This document shows positions 9,526 to 47,711 of a DNA stretch of 64,000 nt, in pieces. Every line of letters begins with the position of its first letter. Within the stretch, counting starts at the first letter, position 1. The stretch is from contig DYEU01000016.1 in the NCBI GenBank assembly GCA_020725555.1, positions 1 to 64,000 on the forward strand, read 5' to 3'. The notes beneath the pieces were generated by a model. That model saw nothing but the letters and a program-made list of their open reading frames with translations, searched no databases and was not told the origin of the DNA. A program made the translations under genes and the position numbers. Source of the stretch: Desulfatibacillum sp. Its GTDB lineage: Bacteria > Desulfobacterota > Desulfobacteria > Desulfobacterales > SpSt-501.

Positions 9526-11640
9526 ATGGACTGGATGCAACGCGCCCGCGAGGGATTCGCCGCCCTGGAGGTCTCGGAGGCGGTCAAATCCCGGGCTCTC
9601 GCAAACCTCGAGCTCTGGCTGGGGGAGGCCGCCTTCGCCGACTACGCCCCCCAGATCCGGCACCTGATCGAAACCCGCCGCTGGGACCTCCTGCTCGATT
9701 CCTTCTACCAGGTGATCCCCTTCGGCACCGGCGGCCGCCGGGGGCCGGTCGGGATCGGGCCCAACCGCATCAACCCCTGGACCATCCAGGCCTCGGCGCA
9801 GGGGCACAGCCAGTACCTCCTACGCCAACACGGGGACGAGGCCCGGCGGCGGGGGGTCGTGATGGCCTTCGACGTGCGCCGCTTCGAGGAGCCCGGGATC
9901 TACGCCGCCGACCGGCCCAACCCCGTCCGGGGCCTGGACGGGCTCGCCCTCGCCCGCGCGGCGGCCGAGGTCTACGCGGCCAACGGCATCCGCGTGCTCC
10001 TCTTCGACTCCCCCCGGAGCACGCCGGAGCTCTCCTTCGCCATCCGCCACCTCGGGGCGGTCGCGGGCGACATGTTCAGCGCCAGCCACAACCTCCCCCC
10101 CGACAACGGCAAGAAGGTCTACGACGCCTTCGGCGGCCAGCTGATCCCGCCGGAGGACCAGATCCTCGTCGACGAGGTGACCCGGAACGTGCGCGACATC
10201 CGGCGCATGCCGTTCGCCGAGGCGCTGCACGAGGGGCGGGTCGAGATCCTGGGCGAGGAGATCGACCGCGCCTTCCACGAGGCGGTCTGCCGGGTGTCGC
10301 TCTCGCCGGCACGACAGGTGCGCATCTTCTACTCCCCGCTTCACGGCACGGGGACGACGAGCGTTCTTCCCGTGCTTGGGCGCCTCGGCTTCGCGGTGAC
10401 GCCCTGCCCGGCGACCTCGAACCCGAGCGGCCGCTTCGAGCGCGTCACCTTCCAGATCCCGAACCCGGAGGTGATCGAGTCCTTCGACGCCTCCCGCCCG
10501 CTCGCCGAGCAGGACGGGGCCGATCTCCTCCTCAGCACCGACCCCGACGCCGACCGCATCGGCGTCCTCGTCCGCCACCGCGGGGAGTGGGTCTTCCTGA
10601 ACGGAAACGAGATCGCCCTGCTGCTCGCCCGCCACGCGATCGGGACCCTCGAGCGCCGCGGGCGCCTTACCCCCGGCCGGGTGATCGTCAAGACCGAGGT
10701 CACCACCTCGCTCATCGACCGCATGGCCGCCCGCCACGGGATCCGCTGCATCGGGGACCTCCTCGTCGGCTTCAAGTACATCGCGGCCGAGATGAACCGG
10801 CTGGAGGCCGCAGGGCGCGGTGCGGATTTTCTCTTCGGCTGCGAGGAAAGCCACGGCTACCTTACCGGGACCTACGCGCGCGACAAGGACGCGGCCGGCG
10901 CGGCCGTCTGGCTCGCCGAGTACGCCTCCGAGCTCAAGGCCTCCGGCCGCACCCTCTGCGACGCGCTCGATGAGATTTACTGCACCTACGGCTGCGGCCA
11001 CAACCACCTGACCGAGATCCGGCTCCTCGGCGCCCAGGGCATGGAGCAAATCGCGGCGCTGATGGCGCATTACCGCACCGCGCGGATCGAGCGCTTCGGG
11101 GAGTTCGCCGTCGTGCGGGCGGTCGACCGCTGGCAGGGAGAGCCGCAGCCCCACCTCTCGGAGACGGACACGGCCTCGCGCAACGCGGTCGTCTTCCACC
11201 TCGCCGACACCCCCGAAACCGACGGCGTGCGCATCACGGTCCGCCCCTCGGGCACCGAGCCCAAGATCAAGATGTACTTCGAGCTGCTCGGCAAACCCTG
11301 CCGGCCCGAGGAACTCGCCCGGGTGCGCGCGCACCTCGCCGGCCTGCGCGAGCGCCTGGAGCGAAGCTTCATGCTCGCCGCCTACCGCCGCCTGGGGATC
11401 GACTTCCCCGAGCGCGGCTTCCTGCTCTTCTGGCAACTGCCGCTCAAGGACAAGCTGCGCTACTTCGAGATCGAGGACGATCTTGCGCGCCTCAGGGAGC
11501 TTGCCGACCCCCGGGCCCGGCGAAACGAGCTCGAACGGCTGCTCGGCTTCCTGGGATCCAACCCCGTCGAAAAGATCGACCGGGCCTTCCGCGCCCGCTT
11601 CGGCTGCGGCGTGCGGGAGTATTTGGACCTTCCCGCCTGA
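9526..11640 (+). CDS. Phosphoglucomutase/phosphomannomutase family protein, large form
   Basis: 704 residues. The alpha-D-phosphohexomutase landmarks occur in order: phosphoserine loop FSASHNLPPDNGKK near residue 185, metal loop STDPDADRIG near 337, sugar-binding loop GCEESHGYLTG near 438 and phosphate-binding RPSGTEPKIKMY near 572. Typical members are 450-580 residues. This one has about 60 extra residues before the catalytic domain and about 110 after the last motif (helical, ending GCGVREYLDLPA). It interconverts hexose 1- and 6-phosphates; glucose or mannose preference cannot be read. Its place beside gpmA, pyk and pgi suggests glycogen or glucose-1-phosphate use. Confidence 0.9.
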   Translation: MDWMQRAREGFAALEVSEAVKSRALANLELWLGEAAFADYAPQIRHLIETRRWDLLLDSFYQVIPFGTGGRRGPVGIGPNRINPWTIQASAQGHSQYLLRQHGDEARRRGVVMAFDVRRFEEPGIYAADRPNPVRGLDGLALARAAAEVYAANGIRVLLFDSPRSTPELSFAIRHLGAVAGDMFSASHNLPPDNGKKVYDAFGGQLIPPEDQILVDEVTRNVRDIRRMPFAEALHEGRVEILGEEIDRAFHEAVCRVSLSPARQVRIFYSPLHGTGTTSVLPVLGRLGFAVTPCPATSNPSGRFERVTFQIPNPEVIESFDASRPLAEQDGADLLLSTDPDADRIGVLVRHRGEWVFLNGNEIALLLARHAIGTLERRGRLTPGRVIVKTEVTTSLIDRMAARHGIRCIGDLLVGFKYIAAEMNRLEAAGRGADFLFGCEESHGYLTGTYARDKDAAGAAVWLAEYASELKASGRTLCDALDEIYCTYGCGHNHLTEIRLLGAQGMEQIAALMAHYRTARIERFGEFAVVRAVDRWQGEPQPHLSETDTASRNAVVFHLADTPETDGVRITVRPSGTEPKIKMYFELLGKPCRPEELARVRAHLAGLRERLERSFMLAAYRRLGIDFPERGFLLFWQLPLKDKLRYFEIEDDLARLRELADPRARRNELERLLGFLGSNPVEKIDRAFRARFGCGVREYLDLPA

Positions 11641-11681
11641 CGGCCCCGAACCCTGAGAGCCCCCGAAAGGAGGCACGGCCC

Positions 11682-13115
11682 ATGGCCTACCCGGCCCACA
11701 AGACCAAAATCGTCGCCACCGTCGGACCGGCCTCCGACCGGCCGGAGGTGCTCCGCCGCATGATCGAAGCCGGGATGAACGTCGCCCGCATCAACTTCTC
11801 CCACGGGGACTTCTCCGGCCACGCCGCGACCATCGAACGCGTGCGCCGCGCCGCGGCCGAAGCCGGGCGCGACGTCGCCGTGCTCGCCGACCTTCCCGGC
11901 CCCAAGATCCGCATCGGCGAGTTCGCCGAGGAGCCGGTGACCCTCGTCCCGGGGCAGCGTTTCGTCCTCACGACCGAGCCCGTCCCCGGGACGGCCGAGC
12001 GCGTCACGGTCGGCTTCGCCCCCCTGCCCGGCGCCGTGCGCCGCGGGGACCGGATCTTCATCGCCGACGGCTTCATCGCCCTCGAGGTCGAGCGGGTCGA
12101 GGGCCCCGAGGTCACATGCCGCGTGGTCGTGGGCGGGGAGCTCCGCTCGCGCAAGGGACTGAACCTCCCCGGGATCGACCTCGGCCAGCAGGCCTTCACG
12201 GAGCATGACCGCCGCTGCCTCGAATTCGCCCTGCGCCACGGGGCCGACGCCATCGGGCAGTCCTTCGTCGACCGGCCGGAAGACGTTCGCGCCGTGCGCG
12301 CGGCCGCGCGGGAGCTGGGGTTCGACCCCCTGGTCATCGCCAAGATCGAGCGCGCCGGCGCCCTGGAGCGCATCGAGGCGATCCTCGAGGCGGCCGACGG
12401 CCTCATGATCGCCCGCGGCGACCTGGGGGTCGAAATCCCCATCGAGCAGATCGCCGTCACCCAGAAGCGGCTGATCCGCCTCGCCCACCGCCTGCAAAAG
12501 CCCGTCATCACCGCCACCCAGATGCTCGAGTCGATGACCGCCCACCGGATCCCCACGCGCGCCGAGGCGACCGATGTCGCCAACGCCATCCTCGACGGCA
12601 CCGATGCCGTGATGCTCTCCGGCGAGTCGGCCATGGGCCGCTTCCCGGTGGAGGCGGTCGCCATGCTCGGCCGCATCGCCGCCGCGACCGAAGCCCACCG
12701 CGAACAGTTCTGCCCCGCCGGGCCGGCCCCGGCGCCGTGCGAGGCCCCGGCTCCGCCCCACCCCGGCGAGCTGATCGCGGCGAGCCTCGAGGCCGCCATG
12801 CGGCGGCTCACCCCGGCGGCGATCGTGGTCCCGACCCACAGCGGCCGCACGGCGCGGGGGATCGCCCGCTTCCGCCTGCCGGTCTGGGTCACGGCGGTCA
12901 GCTCGGTCGAGAAGACCTGCCGCGACCTCCATTTCTCCTACGGCGTGCGGCCCCTCCTCGAGCGCGAGCACCCGGAACGCTGGCGCGACTGGTGCCGCGC
13001 CCTGTGCGCCGCGGAGGGCTTCGCGGGGCGCTTCGTCTTCCTCACCGAGGGGCCCTCGCGCCGCTACCCGCAGAGAAACCACCGGCTCGAGATCATCGAC
13101 CTCGAGGCCGCCTGA
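11682..13115 (+). CDS. pyk: Pyruvate kinase
   Basis: 477 residues, standard for bacterial pyruvate kinase. It begins HKTKIVATVGPASDRPE and has NVARINFSHG, the ADLPGPKIRIGEF motif, the catalytic VIAKIERAGALERIEAIL stretch, and LMIARGDLGVEIP followed by TATQMLESM. The C-terminal domain is present. It converts phosphoenolpyruvate and ADP to pyruvate and ATP. GGAGG lies before the ATG at 11682. It is 41 bases downstream of the mutase gene in the same operon. Confidence 0.97.
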   Translation: MAYPAHKTKIVATVGPASDRPEVLRRMIEAGMNVARINFSHGDFSGHAATIERVRRAAAEAGRDVAVLADLPGPKIRIGEFAEEPVTLVPGQRFVLTTEPVPGTAERVTVGFAPLPGAVRRGDRIFIADGFIALEVERVEGPEVTCRVVVGGELRSRKGLNLPGIDLGQQAFTEHDRRCLEFALRHGADAIGQSFVDRPEDVRAVRAAARELGFDPLVIAKIERAGALERIEAILEAADGLMIARGDLGVEIPIEQIAVTQKRLIRLAHRLQKPVITATQMLESMTAHRIPTRAEATDVANAILDGTDAVMLSGESAMGRFPVEAVAMLGRIAAATEAHREQFCPAGPAPAPCEAPAPPHPGELIAASLEAAMRRLTPAAIVVPTHSGRTARGIARFRLPVWVTAVSSVEKTCRDLHFSYGVRPLLEREHPERWRDWCRALCAAEGFAGRFVFLTEGPSRRYPQRNHRLEIIDLEAA

Positions 13116-40844: not shown

Positions 40845-41153
40845 TCAGGCGATTTTCACGGTCCGCGCCCCCTCCATCGGGTCTTTGAGCGGGATCGACA
40901 CCTTGAGCACGCCGTCCTTGTAGGAGGCCTTCGCCTTGCGGGAATCGACCGGGCAGCAGAACGCCGCGGCCGAGACGTACTCGAAGTCCTCCCGCGGGGC
41001 GACGAGGCTGTAGCTGTCGTCGCGGACCTTGAGCTGGATCGACTGCTTCTTCACGCCCGGAAGGCAGATTTCGAGATGGATGTGGTTTTTCTCCTCGTCG
41101 ATGTAGGAGCAGACATCGGCGGCCATTCTCAGTTTTTCCTTATCCTCGGCCAT
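40845..41153 (-). CDS. Small heat-shock-type protein (Hsp20/alpha-crystallin domain)
   Basis: 102 residues from ATG 41153, with AGGAGG upstream. The sequence is little more than the alpha-crystallin domain: IHLEICLPGVKKQSIQLKVR, then KASYKDGVLKVSIPL, the family's A-x-x-n-GVL signature. The usual N-terminal extension is short, and an unusual Cys pair (AAFCCPVD) sits in the loop. It probably acts as a holdase chaperone. It is divergent from coaE. Confidence 0.85.
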   Translation of the reverse strand: MAEDKEKLRMAADVCSYIDEEKNHIHLEICLPGVKKQSIQLKVRDDSYSLVAPREDFEYVSAAAFCCPVDSRKAKASYKDGVLKVSIPLKDPMEGARTVKIA

Positions 41154-41319: not shown

Positions 41320-41934
41320 GTGATCGTCGTCGGGCTCACGGGGGGGATCGCCAGCGGCAAGTCCACGGTCGCCTCGTTTTTCGAGCAGCTGGGCGCGCGG
41401 CGGATCGACGCCGACCGCCTTGCGCGCGAAGCCCTCGCGCGCGGCACACCGGGCTGGGCCCAGGCCGTCGCCCGCTTCGGCCGCGGGATCCTCCTGCCGG
41501 ACGGGGAGATCGACCGCAAGGGCCTCGCCGCAAGGGTCTTCGCCGACGCCGCAGAGCGGCGCGCGCTCGAGGCCATCGTGCACCCGGCCGTGCGGGAGTC
41601 CGTGCGGCGCCGGCTCGCGGAGATCGGCCGCGAGGAGCCCTCCGCCCTGGTCGTCCTCGAGGTGCCGCTGCTGTTCGAAACCGGCATGGACCGGGGCTGC
41701 GACGCGCGGGTCGTGGTTTTCGTCCCGGAGGCGCTCCAGATCGAGCGCCTCATGGCGCGCGACGGGATCGACCGCGAGGAAGCCCTGCGCCGCATCCGCG
41801 CCCAGATGCCGCTGTCCGAAAAATGCGCCCGCGCCGACTGGGTGATCGACAACGCGGGCCCGCTCGCGGCGACGCAGGCCCAGGTGCGGGACATCTACCG
41901 CCGTCTCGCCGCGGCGCAGGTCGCGCCGTCCTGA
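41320..41934 (+). CDS. coaE: Dephospho-CoA kinase
   Basis: 204 residues from a GTG at 41320 preceded by a GGGGGGG run. It starts VIVVGLTGGIASGKSTVA, containing the P-loop, followed by RRIDADRLAREAL, EAIVHPAVRESV, VVLEVPLLFETGMD and the C-terminal ADWVIDNAGPL. It phosphorylates dephospho-CoA to coenzyme A, the last step of CoA synthesis. Length and motif order are canonical. It stands alone on the plus strand between two minus-strand units. Confidence 0.95.
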   Translation: MIVVGLTGGIASGKSTVASFFEQLGARRIDADRLAREALARGTPGWAQAVARFGRGILLPDGEIDRKGLAARVFADAAERRALEAIVHPAVRESVRRRLAEIGREEPSALVVLEVPLLFETGMDRGCDARVVVFVPEALQIERLMARDGIDREEALRRIRAQMPLSEKCARADWVIDNAGPLAATQAQVRDIYRRLAAAQVAPS

Positions 41935-42001: not shown

Positions 42002-42448
42002 CTACGCGGCGGGCGGCTCGACCAGCCGCTCGAGGATCAGGCCGAAGAAGCCCCCCCCCGCGGCGGAGGCGAAGCGCCAGCCGAGGTGGGTGCGGCAGGC
42101 GGCGCACACCCCCACCTGCCAGGCGTGGCCGGAGAACCACGTGAACTCCTCCGTGGGGCTTCCGACCGCGAGGCAGCCGTCGGCCGCGGCGAAGCAGCCG
42201 ATCTCGAAGACGATCCCGTAGGGGTTGGCGAAGCGGTGCCGGTGGCGCCCGCCCACGGCGATGCGGTCGGCGGGCCGCGCAACCCCCGCCCCGCAGGCGC
42301 GGCAGCGGATCCAGGGCTCCTCGGCGGCAAGCCGCGCCACACCCGGCCCGGGCCCCGCCTGCGGCCCTCCGGCCTCCCGCCCCCCCGGCGGCGCACGCCG
42401 CGCCGAACGGGGTGCGGGCCGCGTCCCGCTGGCTTCCCTTTCCCCCAT
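42002..42448 (-). CDS. CULT-domain protein (cereblon-type ligand-binding fold)
   Basis: 148 residues. After a proline/arginine-rich N-terminal tail of about 45 residues comes a compact domain with two zinc-type pairs, CRAC (49-52) and CAAC (115-118), and the segment TWFSGHAWQVGV then HLGWRF. Trp104, Trp110 and Trp124 are spaced 6 and 14 apart, exactly as Trp380, Trp386 and Trp400 that form the thalidomide-binding cage of human cereblon. Phe126 matches Phe402, while His378 is replaced by Phe102. Bacterial CULT proteins exist but their natural ligands are unknown. It is the last gene of the PBP/SPOR operon; GGAAGG precedes the ATG. Confidence 0.85.
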   Translation of the reverse strand: MGEREASGTRPAPRSARRAPPGGREAGGPQAGPGPGVARLAAEEPWIRCRACGAGVARPADRIAVGGRHRHRFANPYGIVFEIGCFAAADGCLAVGSPTEEFTWFSGHAWQVGVCAACRTHLGWRFASAAGGGFFGLILERLVEPPAA

Positions 42449-42487: not shown

Positions 42488-43852
42488 TCAGCGCGCGGTG
42501 TTCGCCACGTAAAAGTCCTCGATCCAGCCCTTGTCGCGCAGCGCCCGCCCCACCTCCCGCGCCGACTGGGGATCCGCGAAGTGCGAAACCCGCACCTGGT
42601 ACCAGCGCTTGCCGCCGCGCTCGGCCGTGGAGAGGTAGGCGTCGAGCCCCCGCTGCCTGAGCTCCTCCACGCGGCGCAGGGCGGACTCCTCCTTGAGGTA
42701 GGCCGCGACCTGGAGGGTGAAGGGCTGAACGGCGGCCGGCAGGGCCTCGCCCGCGGGCGCGGAAGCGGCCCCGGGAAGCGGCCCCTCGGGCGGCGACCCC
42801 TCCAAGCGCTCCAGCCCCAGCCGGACGCCGAGCGCGATCCCCGCGAGGGCCGCCGCAGCGAGAAGCGCGCGCCCCGCGGCGGGGCGAAGAAGAAAGGAAA
42901 GGACCCGGCGGGCCTGGGCGGCGGCCTTGTTGAGCAGCCGGGCGGCGAGGCGCGCGGCGGCCGCCCCCGCCGCGGCGAGCCGAAGCAGCGAGGGCCCGGC
43001 GGCGGGCCGTCTCCAGAGCGTGGGCGGCGGCTCCTCGCCATCCTCCTCGGCGCCCGCGGCAAAGGCGCGGAAGCGCGGCTCGGCATCCCCCCCCTCTTCC
43101 GCCCCCTCGGGCGGCCTTGCGGCCGAAACGAGACGAGGCCCCGGTGCGGCGGGCGCCGTTGCCGGCGGCCTCTCGGGCAACCGCGGCCGCTTTCGGTCTT
43201 CGGCCGCCGCGGGGGAAAGGATCTGAGGGGCCACGGGGGATGGGGCCCCGGCGGCCTCCCGGCCCGGGCGGCGCGGGGCGGCGCCGATGCCGGCGACCGC
43301 CGCCTGGATGTCCGGGCGGCCCGGGTGGGCCGCGGCGATCCGGCCTATGGCCTCTTCGTCTTCCGGGCGCATCCCGCGGTCGGCGACCCGCTTGAGCCAC
43401 AGGCGGGCCGCGCCGTGGTCGTCGGGGTGCGCCGCGAGGTAGCGCCGCAGGAAGGCCTCCTCTTCCGCCGCCGGGCGGGGCCGATCGAGAAGGATCCTCG
43501 CCCGGCGGCCGCCGATCGCGGCAAGCGCGCGGCGCCGCGCCGCCCCGGAGACGCCGGCGCGATCGAGCAGGGAAAGCGCCTCCTCGAGGACGTCCTCGGC
43601 TTCCTCGGGGAAACCCTCGCGCGCAAGGCGCTCCGCCTCCCGGAGGCGCCGCCTGAGGGCGGCGAGGGCCCGGCGGCGCACGGCCCAGCCTGCGGCGAGG
43701 GCCGCGGCCGCGAGGGCGGTTGCGGCCAAAAGCGGCATCCCCTCCGCGCCCACCAGGCGGTGGGCGGCCGGCAGCACGGGAAGCCCCCCCAGGCCGACCG
43801 CGGCCAGCCCGATCCAGAGGCCGGCGTTCAGGAGCTTCAGGGACGGCAGCAT
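42488..43852 (-). CDS. Membrane protein with C-terminal SPOR domain
   Basis: 454 residues. Two hydrophobic segments near the N-terminus (about 8-30 and 40-60) are followed by a helical, repeat-like region (about 70-170). A long Pro/Ala/Glu-rich linker leads to a third membrane helix (GRALLAAAALAGIALGV, about 325-341), then a SPOR domain (about 375-454: FTLQVAAYLKEESALRRVEE, RWYQVRVSHFADPQSAREV). SPOR domains bind denuded peptidoglycan at division sites. It follows the PBP1A-type gene by 18 bases, fitting a cell-wall role. AAGGAG precedes the ATG. Confidence 0.85.
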   Translation of the reverse strand: MLPSLKLLNAGLWIGLAAVGLGGLPVLPAAHRLVGAEGMPLLAATALAAAALAAGWAVRRRALAALRRRLREAERLAREGFPEEAEDVLEEALSLLDRAGVSGAARRRALAAIGGRRARILLDRPRPAAEEEAFLRRYLAAHPDDHGAARLWLKRVADRGMRPEDEEAIGRIAAAHPGRPDIQAAVAGIGAAPRRPGREAAGAPSPVAPQILSPAAAEDRKRPRLPERPPATAPAAPGPRLVSAARPPEGAEEGGDAEPRFRAFAAGAEEDGEEPPPTLWRRPAAGPSLLRLAAAGAAAARLAARLLNKAAAQARRVLSFLLRPAAGRALLAAAALAGIALGVRLGLERLEGSPPEGPLPGAASAPAGEALPAAVQPFTLQVAAYLKEESALRRVEELRQRGLDAYLSTAERGGKRWYQVRVSHFADPQSAREVGRALRDKGWIEDFYVANTAR

Positions 43853-43870
43853 GCGGCGCACTCCTTGCGC

Positions 43871-45895
43871 TCAGGGCCCGGCCCCGAGGGGCACGGCCAG
43901 GGTCGCATCCTCGCTCCGGGCGGCAAGGGAGGGCACCTGCGCAAACCGCAGGGCGACCTCCATCCCCCGCCCCCCCCACGGCGGGGAGGGCTCCCCCGAG
44001 GAGGGGGAGACGGTGACGAAGCGGATGTCCGGCGGAATCGGGAATTCGCGCTGCGGCTCGTCCGCGGCCGCCCGTTTCATGAACTCCGCCCAGATGGGGG
44101 CCGCCGCGCGGCCGCCGGTGAGGCCGCGGCCCTGGAGATCGCGCAATTCCGCCCCGCGGTCGAAGCCGACCCAGACGCTTGCGCTCAGGGTCGGGGTGAA
44201 GCCGGTGAACCAGGCGTCGTGGTGGTCGTCGCTCGTCCCGGTCTTGCCCGCGGCCGGCGCCTGGAAGCCCTGCTGGAGGATCCCCCGGCCGGTCCCCTCG
44301 CGGATCACGGCGCGCATCATGTCCACCACCTGGAAAGCGATGGCGGCGTCGAGCGTGCGCCGCCCGGCGATCAGCCGCTCCTCGAGCACGCGGCCGCCGG
44401 AATCCTCGACCCGGCGGATGGCGAAGGGCTCGTGGCGGATGCCGCCGGAGGCGAAGGTGGCGAAGGCCGCGGCCATCTCGAGCGGGCTCACCCCCGAGGT
44501 CCCCAGCGCCACCGAGGGCACGGCGGCGAGCGGGCTCTTGATGCCGCAGCGCCGGGCGGCGTCGATCACCGCCGGGGCGCCGACGCGCACCGCGAGCTGG
44601 GCGGCGACGGAGTTCACGCTGTGGGCGAGCGCGCGCTTGAGGATCATGGGGCCCTCGTACTGGCCGCTGAAATTGCGCGGGCTCCACGAAGGCTGCCCGG
44701 GCAGGGGAATGGAGACCCGCTGGTCGACGAAGACCGCGGCCGGGTGCAGGCCCGCCTTCTCGAAGGCCGCGTAGTACACGAACGGCTTGAAGCCCGAGCC
44801 CGGCTGGCGGTTGCTCTGGAGGGCGCGGTTGAACTCGCTCTCGGCGTAATCGCGCCCCCCGACGAGCGCCCGCACCGCCCCGGAGTGCACCTCGACGGCG
44901 GCCAGGGCGGCCTGGAGGCGGTGCGGCCCCTCGGCGGCCGGCGGGGGACGCAGGGTGGCTTCCAGCCGGGAGAGCCCGGAGGCGACCGCCTCCTCGGCCC
45001 AGGCCTGCAGCCGGGTGTCGAGGGTGGTGAAGACCTTGAGCCCGGCATGGTGGACGACGTCGGTGCCGTAGCGGTCCTCGAGATCGCGGAGGACCCAGTC
45101 GAGAAAGTAGCCCCCGGAGGCGGGCACTTCGCGCGACCGCGGCCGGAGCGCCAGGGGTGCGCGGAAGGCCTCTTCGGCCTCGGCCGCGGTGATCGCGCCG
45201 ACGGCGACCATGCGGCGCAGCACGGTCTTCTGGCGCTCCTTGGCGCGCTCGAAATGGCGGTAGGGGTTGTAGCGCGTGGGCGACTTGGGCAGCCCGGCGA
45301 GGAGCGCCGCCTCGGCGAGCGTGAGCCGCGAGGCGGGTTTGCCGAAGAAGGCCTGGGAGGCCTGCTCGATGCCGAGGGCGCCCACGCCGAAGGCGATCTG
45401 GTTCACGTAGGCCTCGAGGATTTCGGATTTGCCGAAGCGCGCCTCGATGTGCAAGGCGACCAGCATCTCGCGGACCTTGCGGCCCAGCGTGCGGCGGAAA
45501 CTGAAAAAGAGGTTCTTCGCGAGCTGCTGGGTGATCGTCGAGGCCCCCTCGAGGCGGCCGCCGGGGAAGAGGTTCACCCAGAAGGCCTTGAGCAGGCGCA
45601 GCTTGTCGATCCCCCGGTGCTCGTAGAACCGGTGGTCCTCGGTGGCGATCACGGCCTGCAGGAAATACGGGGAGATGCGCTCGAGGGGCACAAGCTCGCG
45701 CCCGCCTAAAACGAGCAGGCGCTCGCCGGCGGCGGCGTAGATCTCGGTTGCGGGCGTCTCGATGATGCGGCTTAAGGGTTCGGGGACGCGCGGCAGGTCC
45801 TTGAGGAGGACGAACACGGAGACCCAGGCGGCCGCGGCCCCGAGACCCGCAAGCAGGATCCCGAGCTGGAGCGCAAGGCGCAGGGCGTTCCTCAT
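43871..45895 (-). CDS. Bifunctional penicillin-binding protein 1A type
   Basis: 674 residues. An N-terminal membrane helix (about 8-32) is followed by a glycosyltransferase GT51 domain with ATEDHRFYEHRGID and GASTITQQLAKNLFF. The transpeptidase domain has all three penicillin-binding motifs: SGFK in QPGSGFKPFVYY, SVN in AHSVNS, and KTG in AAGKTGTSDDHHDAWFTGF. It polymerises and crosslinks peptidoglycan on the outer face of the inner membrane. Its start overlaps the stop of the upstream membrane-protein gene (ATGA). Confidence 0.95.
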   Translation of the reverse strand: MRNALRLALQLGILLAGLGAAAAWVSVFVLLKDLPRVPEPLSRIIETPATEIYAAAGERLLVLGGRELVPLERISPYFLQAVIATEDHRFYEHRGIDKLRLLKAFWVNLFPGGRLEGASTITQQLAKNLFFSFRRTLGRKVREMLVALHIEARFGKSEILEAYVNQIAFGVGALGIEQASQAFFGKPASRLTLAEAALLAGLPKSPTRYNPYRHFERAKERQKTVLRRMVAVGAITAAEAEEAFRAPLALRPRSREVPASGGYFLDWVLRDLEDRYGTDVVHHAGLKVFTTLDTRLQAWAEEAVASGLSRLEATLRPPPAAEGPHRLQAALAAVEVHSGAVRALVGGRDYAESEFNRALQSNRQPGSGFKPFVYYAAFEKAGLHPAAVFVDQRVSIPLPGQPSWSPRNFSGQYEGPMILKRALAHSVNSVAAQLAVRVGAPAVIDAARRCGIKSPLAAVPSVALGTSGVSPLEMAAAFATFASGGIRHEPFAIRRVEDSGGRVLEERLIAGRRTLDAAIAFQVVDMMRAVIREGTGRGILQQGFQAPAAGKTGTSDDHHDAWFTGFTPTLSASVWVGFDRGAELRDLQGRGLTGGRAAAPIWAEFMKRAAADEPQREFPIPPDIRFVTVSPSSGEPSPPWGGRGMEVALRFAQVPSLAARSEDATLAVPLGAGP

Positions 45896-46788
45896 GGCCC
45901 CCTCGAGTCGGCCGCCGCCGCCTGCCCGGCGGGCGCGGCCTCGGCGCGGCCCTCCATGCGGGCCCGCAGCCGCCAGACCGCCCAGTCCTGCCCCTGCAGG
46001 AGGATCACGCGCACGCCGGCCGCGTTGCGGATCTCGAAGCCCACCTCCACCAGGCCGCCCAGGGCCTCGTCGGAGATGCCGACCCGCCGGATCTGCGCGG
46101 CGACCCCGAGCAGCCGCTCCGGCTGGGGGAGCGCCCCGCGGCGCTCCTCCTCGCCCAGTTCGGCGAGAACGGCGAAGAAACGCTCGGCGGGGTAGATGCG
46201 GCCGCGGAAGACGGGGATCTGCTCGAGCGTCTTCGACTCGCCCTCGCCGCCGCGGGCGACCAGGGCGAGCGGGGCGGCGGCCAGCCGGAACTGCCGGAGC
46301 ACGCGGTTTCCGGGCTCGAGGAGGTAAATCATCAGCCCGTCGGAGGAGCGCTCGAGGTAGGTGCGGCTCCAGCGCCCCTCGCCGGCGAGCTGCAGCAGCT
46401 CGAAGGGGGAGATGATCTCCTCGGCGATCGCGGCCGGAAGGCCCCGGTAGAGTTCGCGGAAGTGCTCGGCGGAGAGGATCACCGCCTGCCCCGGGGCGAG
46501 CGCGGCGAGCACCTCGCCGAGGCTGCCGGCGTTGCGGGCCCGGCGCTCCTGGGCTTCCCGGTCGCCCGCCATCTGCTCCACGACCGAGAGGGCCGAGCGC
46601 GCCCTGCGGCCCTGCTCCCAGACGAGGCCCGTCTCGGGGCGCTCGGCGTTGGTCGCGGCGAGGTAGGCGCCGAGCAGGCTCTCCACCCAGTGCAGCCGGA
46701 ACTCGGAGACGGCGAGCGCCGCGAGCACGGCGGCGGCGAGCAGCCCGGGAAGGGAGCCCCGGGGGCGGCGATGCCCGAACATCCTCAT
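45892..46788 (-). CDS. Membrane-anchored protein of unknown function upstream of PBP
   Basis: 298 residues. One hydrophobic segment (about 13-30, LPGLLAAAVLAALAVSEF) acts as signal or anchor; the rest is predicted periplasmic. I recognise no domain. Features include LVWEQGRRARSALSVVEQM near residue 55, a central part reading LEPGNRVLRQFRLAAAPL, and an Ala-rich tail. It is translationally coupled to the PBP gene, so a cell-wall accessory role is likely but inferred. Confidence 0.78.
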   Translation of the reverse strand: MRMFGHRRPRGSLPGLLAAAVLAALAVSEFRLHWVESLLGAYLAATNAERPETGLVWEQGRRARSALSVVEQMAGDREAQERRARNAGSLGEVLAALAPGQAVILSAEHFRELYRGLPAAIAEEIISPFELLQLAGEGRWSRTYLERSSDGLMIYLLEPGNRVLRQFRLAAAPLALVARGGEGESKTLEQIPVFRGRIYPAERFFAVLAELGEEERRGALPQPERLLGVAAQIRRVGISDEALGGLVEVGFEIRNAAGVRVILLQGQDWAVWRLRARMEGRAEAAPAGQAAAADSRGP

Positions 46789-46955: not shown

Positions 46956-47711
46956 ATGCGCTCGACCCTCAAGTTGATCCTCCCCGGCCTCGTCGCGCTT
47001 TCACTCGCGCTGGCGGGGGCGCCGGCGGAGAGCGCGGCCGGAATCGACGTCGCCGACGCCGTGGCGGTCGCCGGCCGGCCGGTCACGCTCGCCGTGCGCA
47101 CGGGGGGGCTCTTCGCCGCCGCGGGCGGAACGCGGGTGACGCTCACGATCGAAGGGCAGGCGCCGCGGGAGATCCTGACCGGCGGGGACGGCTTCGGCTA
47201 CCTGCGGTTCCGGCCCGAGACCCCGGGGGTCTTGGGGCTCGCCGCCCGCGCCGGAAACGCGGAAGGCTCGGGCAGGCTCCTCGTCCTCGCCCCGGGCGAG
47301 CCCGTGGTGGTGATCGAGTGGGAGAGCGTGCTCTGGAGCGCGCTGCGCCCGGGGGAGGACGAGGCCTGCCGCGAGGCCCTGCGGCGGATCGGGCGCGGCT
47401 TCGGCATCGTTTTCGTCACGCGTTGGGCGGGCCGGGATATCGCCCGCCGCCGGATCGACGGCGACGGGCTCTCCCGGGCGGTCGCGCTCGCCTGGCGGGG
47501 CGCGACCACGCTGCGGCGCCTGCGCGAGCTCGACATCCCGATCGCGGCCGCGATCGGCTCGCGGGAAGTGACCGCCGCGGCGCGGGGGCTCGCCGACCGC
47601 CGGGTCGGCTTCGACCGCGAGCGGGGCGTCACCCGGGTCGGCTCCTGGTCGGAAATCCCCCCGCTCCTCGAGACGCCCGCCCCAGGCGGCGAGGGGCTCC
47701 GCGGCCGCTGA
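46956..47711 (+). CDS. Secreted protein of unknown function, possible degenerate HAD-like domain
   Basis: 251 residues. A signal peptide (about 1-26, LALAGAPAES) is followed by an Ig-like beta region (about 28-105). The second half has VVVIEWESVLW and then IVFVTRWAGRDIARRR, positioned like motifs I and II of HAD phosphatases. The catalytic aspartates are absent, so it would be inactive. This relation is weak. It stands alone, with its own promoter candidate, divergent from the PBP operon. Confidence 0.7.
   Translation: MRSTLKLILPGLVALSLALAGAPAESAAGIDVADAVAVAGRPVTLAVRTGGLFAAAGGTRVTLTIEGQAPREILTGGDGFGYLRFRPETPGVLGLAARAGNAEGSGRLLVLAPGEPVVVIEWESVLWSALRPGEDEACREALRRIGRGFGIVFVTRWAGRDIARRRIDGDGLSRAVALAWRGATTLRRLRELDIPIAAAIGSREVTAAARGLADRRVGFDRERGVTRVGSWSEIPPLLETPAPGGEGLRGR

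Follow-up and report, generated by a model that had tools for sequence, protein, structure and literature searches.

A near-core CULT protein with the cereblon tryptophan cage in Desulfobacterales

The tryptophan cage of CULT domains binds imide rings, glutarimides included. Yippee/Mis18 and other beta-tent proteins have the fold and the CxxC zinc pairs in common with CULT proteins, and the cage is CULT-specific. Human cereblon binds C-terminal cyclic imides of Asn and Gln (PMC12117711), and MsCI4 (cereblon isoform 4, MGR_0879) of Magnetospirillum gryphiswaldense binds uracil and uridine (PMC4287342). The concentration of CULT proteins in deltaproteobacteria was reported already in 2015 (PMC4287342); we found no bacterial function for them in the open-access literature searched. 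The question of what the thalidomide pocket does in bacteria thus concerns a gene that is near-universal in a large bacterial order.

Here we analyse the window, a stretch of 64,000 nucleotides from a Desulfatibacillum sp. contig (DYEU01000016.1), in which an initial annotation had recognized a CULT protein with a complete cereblon cage and assigned it to a cell-wall operon.

A single-domain, MsCI4-like CULT protein

The gene and the parts of its domain lie as follows.

42002..42448, minus strand: CULT protein, 148 aa, domain at about residues 44-147, disordered N-terminal tail at residues 1-43
42293..42304, minus strand: first CxxC zinc pair, C49-C52, computed from the open reading frame (ORF) and invariant in 119 relatives
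42095..42106, minus strand: second CxxC zinc pair, C115-C118, likewise computed and likewise invariant in 119 relatives
42077..42139, minus strand: span of the aromatic cage from W104 to W124 (W104, W110, W124), with F102 just upstream

A phmmer search of all PDB sequences with the window ORF found MsCI4 (E 1.5e-26) and human cereblon (E about 1e-9). The alignment of 119 sequences served as input for an AlphaFold2 model, in which pLDDT exceeds 90 across most of the domain and the first 40 residues are disordered. Compared with the PDB by Foldseek, this model retrieved MsCI4 complexes first (MsCI4–thalidomide structures at E of about 1e-11 and a target TM of about 0.9) and human cereblon domains next, with the deoxyuridine complex 4v31 among the matches; the beta-tent fold anticipated by the initial annotation is therefore present in the model. 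Because the sequence matches and the predicted structure agree, chance is ruled out, and the ORF encodes a genuine single-domain CULT protein of the MsCI4 kind. The protein has no match in Pfam or NCBIfam, so annotation relying on those libraries would give it no name; 66 of the 119 relatives match the Pfam model Yippee-Mis18, weakly, and the window protein falls below its threshold.

The likeness to MsCI4 (about 40% identity) extends to the domain, the cage, the zinc pairs, the predicted fold and a Phe at the position of human His378. The two proteins differ in that Tyr101, Tyr83 and Ala52 of MsCI4 are Phe126, His108 and Tyr77 here, and in that the MsCI4 tail has about 20 residues, whereas that of the window protein has about 45. 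With the thalidomide-binding domain of human cereblon the window protein has in common the beta-tent fold, the three cage tryptophans, the Phe at the base of the cage and the equivalent of Glu377 (E101), at about 26% identity over the structural match. Unlike human cereblon, it has neither a DDB1-binding region nor a ubiquitin system and carries Phe in place of His378; its 148 residues contain no LON domain, which sets it apart from cereblon proper, an E3 substrate receptor.

A statistical gene model places the start at 42340. We kept 42448 because L058, the closest relative, shares part of the additional tail (SARRAP.G.REAGG) and because this tail holds the remnant of an N-terminal element (see below), although this start is not proven.

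The zinc site and the tryptophan cage

Residues were mapped from the alignment of the window protein with MsCI4 and from published work, the remaining human numbers being inferred through fixed spacing. The cage tryptophans, 6 and 14 residues apart, are present in 119/119 aligned sequences and correspond to Trp79, Trp85 and Trp99 of MsCI4, which are Trp380, Trp386 and Trp400 of human cereblon (PMC8900816). An NPxG hairpin motif is also present (N75-P76-Y77-G78), and E101 is the counterpart of MsCI4 Glu76 and human Glu377. Family membership, the complete cage and the two zinc pairs, all read from the letters alone in the initial annotation, are thus borne out by sequence, alignment and predicted structure.

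One correspondence has to be revised. His121 and Phe126 had been described as in the human pocket; both residues are present, and F126 is of the human type (Tyr101 in MsCI4), but H121 is a His conserved (115/119) within the (S/T)HLGW strand, the strand of the second CxxC pair, and is not equivalent to His378. That position is occupied by F102, as it is by Phe77 in MsCI4, and the ligand is contacted there via the backbone (PMC8900816). A further difference is H108, which replaces the Tyr conserved at MsCI4 Y83 and human Y384 (PMC4449219); His at this place is rare (4/119).

Aromatic cages of this kind often bind methylated Lys or Arg (discussed in PMC4287342 and PMC4449219), and the cage might accordingly read methylated or cationic side chains, or another ligand. 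We consider this quite unlikely: trials of such groups in vitro were inconclusive (PMC4449219), and the backbone contacts at the Phe77 and Trp79 positions (F102 and W104 here) suit imides (PMC8900816).

Distribution and selection

The CULT gene was found in all seven sampled members of the genus of the window genome. Across the order, a profile search recovered it in 212 of 340 sampled genomes and in 127 of the 185 good ones, in single copy in nearly all; the gene is close to core in the order. In a phylum-wide sample, 27 of 245 good genomes had a match by single-sequence search, a method of lower sensitivity than the profile search. Scanning GTDB contigs returned 473 relatives, and the best 80 of the 473 are mostly labelled Desulfobacterales or deltaproteobacteria. 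The viral contigs, plasmids and phages searched for a link to mobile elements contained no CULT match. Between the window protein and L058, the domain has a dN of 0.095 and a dS of 0.28, and it is under purifying selection.

Cell-wall genes beside the CULT gene

The genes around the CULT gene in the window are the following.

45892..46788, minus strand: first gene of a four-gene run, 298 aa, no Pfam or NCBIfam match
43871..45895, minus strand: PBP1A family penicillin-binding protein (TIGR02074, E 3.6e-173; start from the gene model)
42488..43861, minus strand: SPOR-domain protein, upstream of CULT and in the same direction (Pfam PF05036, E 3.4e-11)
41320..41934, plus strand: coaE (dephospho-CoA kinase), convergent, closing the run (PF01121, E 1.1e-58); adjoins CULT in genus members

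The run comprises the 298-aa gene, PBP1A, the SPOR protein and CULT, with gaps of -4, 9 and 39 bp. A promoter-like site (46866-46837) precedes its first gene and CULT has none directly before it; co-transcription of the four genes in the window genome is plausible. The operon of the initial annotation therefore stands as a plausible physical run, but the PBP1A–SPOR–CULT order occurs at 5 of 120 distinct loci, all in a single genus (window, L058, L084, L092 and L160), and is not kept across the family.

Taken at face value, this order would suggest a ligand or partner from cell-wall metabolism, and the 39-bp distance to the SPOR gene, the single promoter-like site for the run, the retention of the order in five genus members and the presence of an N-acetylmuramoyl-L-alanine amidase gene upstream of CULT at two other loci all point that way. 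However, in two further members of the genus (L157 and L158) opposite-strand genes for an ATPase-domain protein, a universal stress protein and an FmdB-type zinc ribbon separate SPOR from CULT, and in L074, from another family, about 7.5 kb separate the two, and homologues of the ATPase-domain and FmdB genes (46-57% identity) again lie between them on the opposite strand. In L064 and L089, too, CULT comes after these two genes. Because opposite-strand genes are retained in between in the two genus members and in outgroup families, the juxtaposition is probably secondary, and the simplest history would be that this block was lost in part of the genus, leaving CULT behind SPOR; the polarity of gene order rests on shared synteny and not on a PBP1A tree, in which the outgroup branch is long. 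Outside the genus, PBP1A is near CULT at 2 of 113 loci, and coaE and an Hsp20-like gene, which have no cell-wall link, are equally conserved as neighbours.

PBP1A and SPOR domains have their function in the periplasm, whereas the CULT sequence, by inspection, lacks a signal peptide, which makes a periplasmic ligand unlikely. A cell-wall ligand or partner is thus very improbable, and the envelope ligand that the initial annotation had derived from these neighbours is not upheld. With this weak and misleading operon clue removed, the position beside cell-wall genes seems to be a recent chance product of gene order, with no real hint of function.

Two conserved proteins, the 298-aa product (45892-46788) and one of 251 aa (46956-47711), flank the promoter region of the run, both without a Pfam or NCBIfam match, and the 298-aa gene is retained upstream of PBP1A in the genus. 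The short Hsp20-like protein (40845-41153; alpha-crystallin type by appearance) is encoded beyond coaE and occurs near CULT in 7/7 genus members.

Across all relatives, the commonest neighbour family of CULT is found at no more than 12 of 120 loci, 63 of the 120 genes have nothing on the same strand within 100 bp, and the close same-strand neighbours span 70 Pfam families. A conserved partner sought through the neighbourhood yielded clade-specific blocks and none that is general.

A short element in the N-terminal tail

In most relatives the tail is about 45 residues long, and in many of them it carries a short [L/F][R/K]xP element and an acidic linker. The window protein has a degenerate copy.

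42389..42406, minus strand: degenerate N-terminal element, residues 15-20 (S-A-R-R-A-P), also conserved in L058, the closest relative; family form [L/F][R/K]xP

The pattern [LFWYVIM][RK]xP occurs in 63 of 119 tails, compared with a mean of 13 and a maximum of 26 in 1,000 shuffles, and the stricter hhRxP in 41 tails compared with 1 in shuffles; tail starts were assigned by rule, and some tails may be wrong. In most cases the element sits 33-34 residues ahead of the first zinc Cys, and often it is 11 residues past the start. When each cluster at 80% identity is counted once, the pattern is present in about 42 of 96 (3.6 in shuffles). Looser clustering gives 23/66 (70%), 9/39 (65%) and 3/23 (60%; not significant); this shrinkage as clusters merge indicates limited independence, and the element is best regarded as characteristic of the main group among the relatives. 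In a held-out set of 30 sequences, all below 85% identity to every earlier sequence, the pattern, kept fixed, was found in 13, with 1.1 expected and a maximum of 6 in 1,000 shuffles. These counts argue that the tail sequence is not random.

Four genus members have the element (LRQP, LRQP, LRKP and FRQP). In the window protein and L058 the equivalent stretch (residues 17-20) reads R-R-A-P and lacks the hydrophobic residue, and the L092 version is likewise degenerate; the exact pattern is missing in about half of the relatives. The window protein is an ordinary CULT member with a degraded version of the motif. It is the family-wide element that deserves follow-up, as a testable handle for finding a partner.

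A possible reader of cyclic-imide damage

We tentatively favour a free-standing reader: the cage would recognize proteins or peptides damaged by cyclic-imide formation (aspartimide or glutarimide at the C terminus), the tail would dock the CULT protein to a partner, for instance a protease or a chaperone, and the PBP1A and SPOR neighbours would be incidental. We infer both the reading and the docking from the combination of family membership with invariant cage and zinc residues, purifying selection, near-core spread, the lack of a stable gene partner, the tail element and the imide chemistry of known ligands. A near-core, mostly single-copy, cytoplasmic protein with no stable gene partners is easier to reconcile with a housekeeping reader than with an enzyme of a pathway. 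Protein-damage imides, also raised in the initial annotation, would be a reasonable idea as ligand, on the basis of the cereblon literature and not of gene context. Against a docking tail stand the degenerate elements of the window protein, L058 and L092, the lack of the exact pattern in about half of the relatives, and the tail of MsCI4, which is too short to hold the element.

The main rival is that the protein senses a small metabolite, be it uracil, uridine, a dihydropyrimidine or a different cyclic imide; such a sensor might serve pyrimidine salvage or uracil-DNA signalling, for instance. The binding of uracil and uridine by MsCI4 (PMC4287342) and the match to the deoxyuridine complex are consistent with such a sensor; the neighbours listed include no recurrent pyrimidine gene, and the window protein has no attached enzymatic or DNA-binding domain, which makes this reading unlikely.

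A more specific form of the damage reader would make the Desulfobacterales CULT proteins dedicated adaptors of protein quality control, in which the cage would read C-terminal cyclic imides and [L/F][R/K]xP would deliver the damaged protein to a protease or a chaperone. To our knowledge, bacteria lack the ubiquitin ligase through which cereblon acts, so a role in degradation would need another, putative partner. SspB-type protease adaptors resemble CULT proteins in general layout only (a ligand domain, a flexible linker and a short terminal motif); their fold is unrelated, and any ClpX binding by CULT proteins would be hypothetical. We give the adaptor proposal a small chance; if true, these proteins would be a ubiquitin-free counterpart of the cereblon pathway.

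Clade-specific neighbours

The fusion of LON and CULT domains in cereblon suggested Lon as a partner by analogy. The window's own genome has four LON substrate-binding domain loci, and in L054 a LonB/LonC-type protease gene (10252-12735) lies directly 3' of a divergent CULT gene with His at the human His378 position; we judged this to be too little to retain the candidate.

The blocks found near CULT in single clades contain EF-G; asparagine synthetase with a glutamate-cysteine-ligase-like gene; a ClC channel with FmdB; or ADP-ribosylglycohydrolase. The commonest downstream neighbour, in 12 loci, encodes a 179-aa protein of no Pfam family (L074:10412-10951; homologues in L059, L064, L069, L072, L089, L093, L110, L112, L120, L130 and L168). 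In one clade (L080, L094, L097, L104, L117 and L122) a gene of the ADP-ribosylglycohydrolase family is directly 3' of CULT. In another (L031, L065, L067, L073, L087, L095, L103, L107 and L134) CULT is divergent from genes for an asparagine synthetase, glutamine-hydrolysing by sequence, and for glutamate-cysteine-ligase-like and glutaredoxin-like proteins; the placement of Asn/Gln chemistry beside a putative imide reader is suggestive and limited to this clade.
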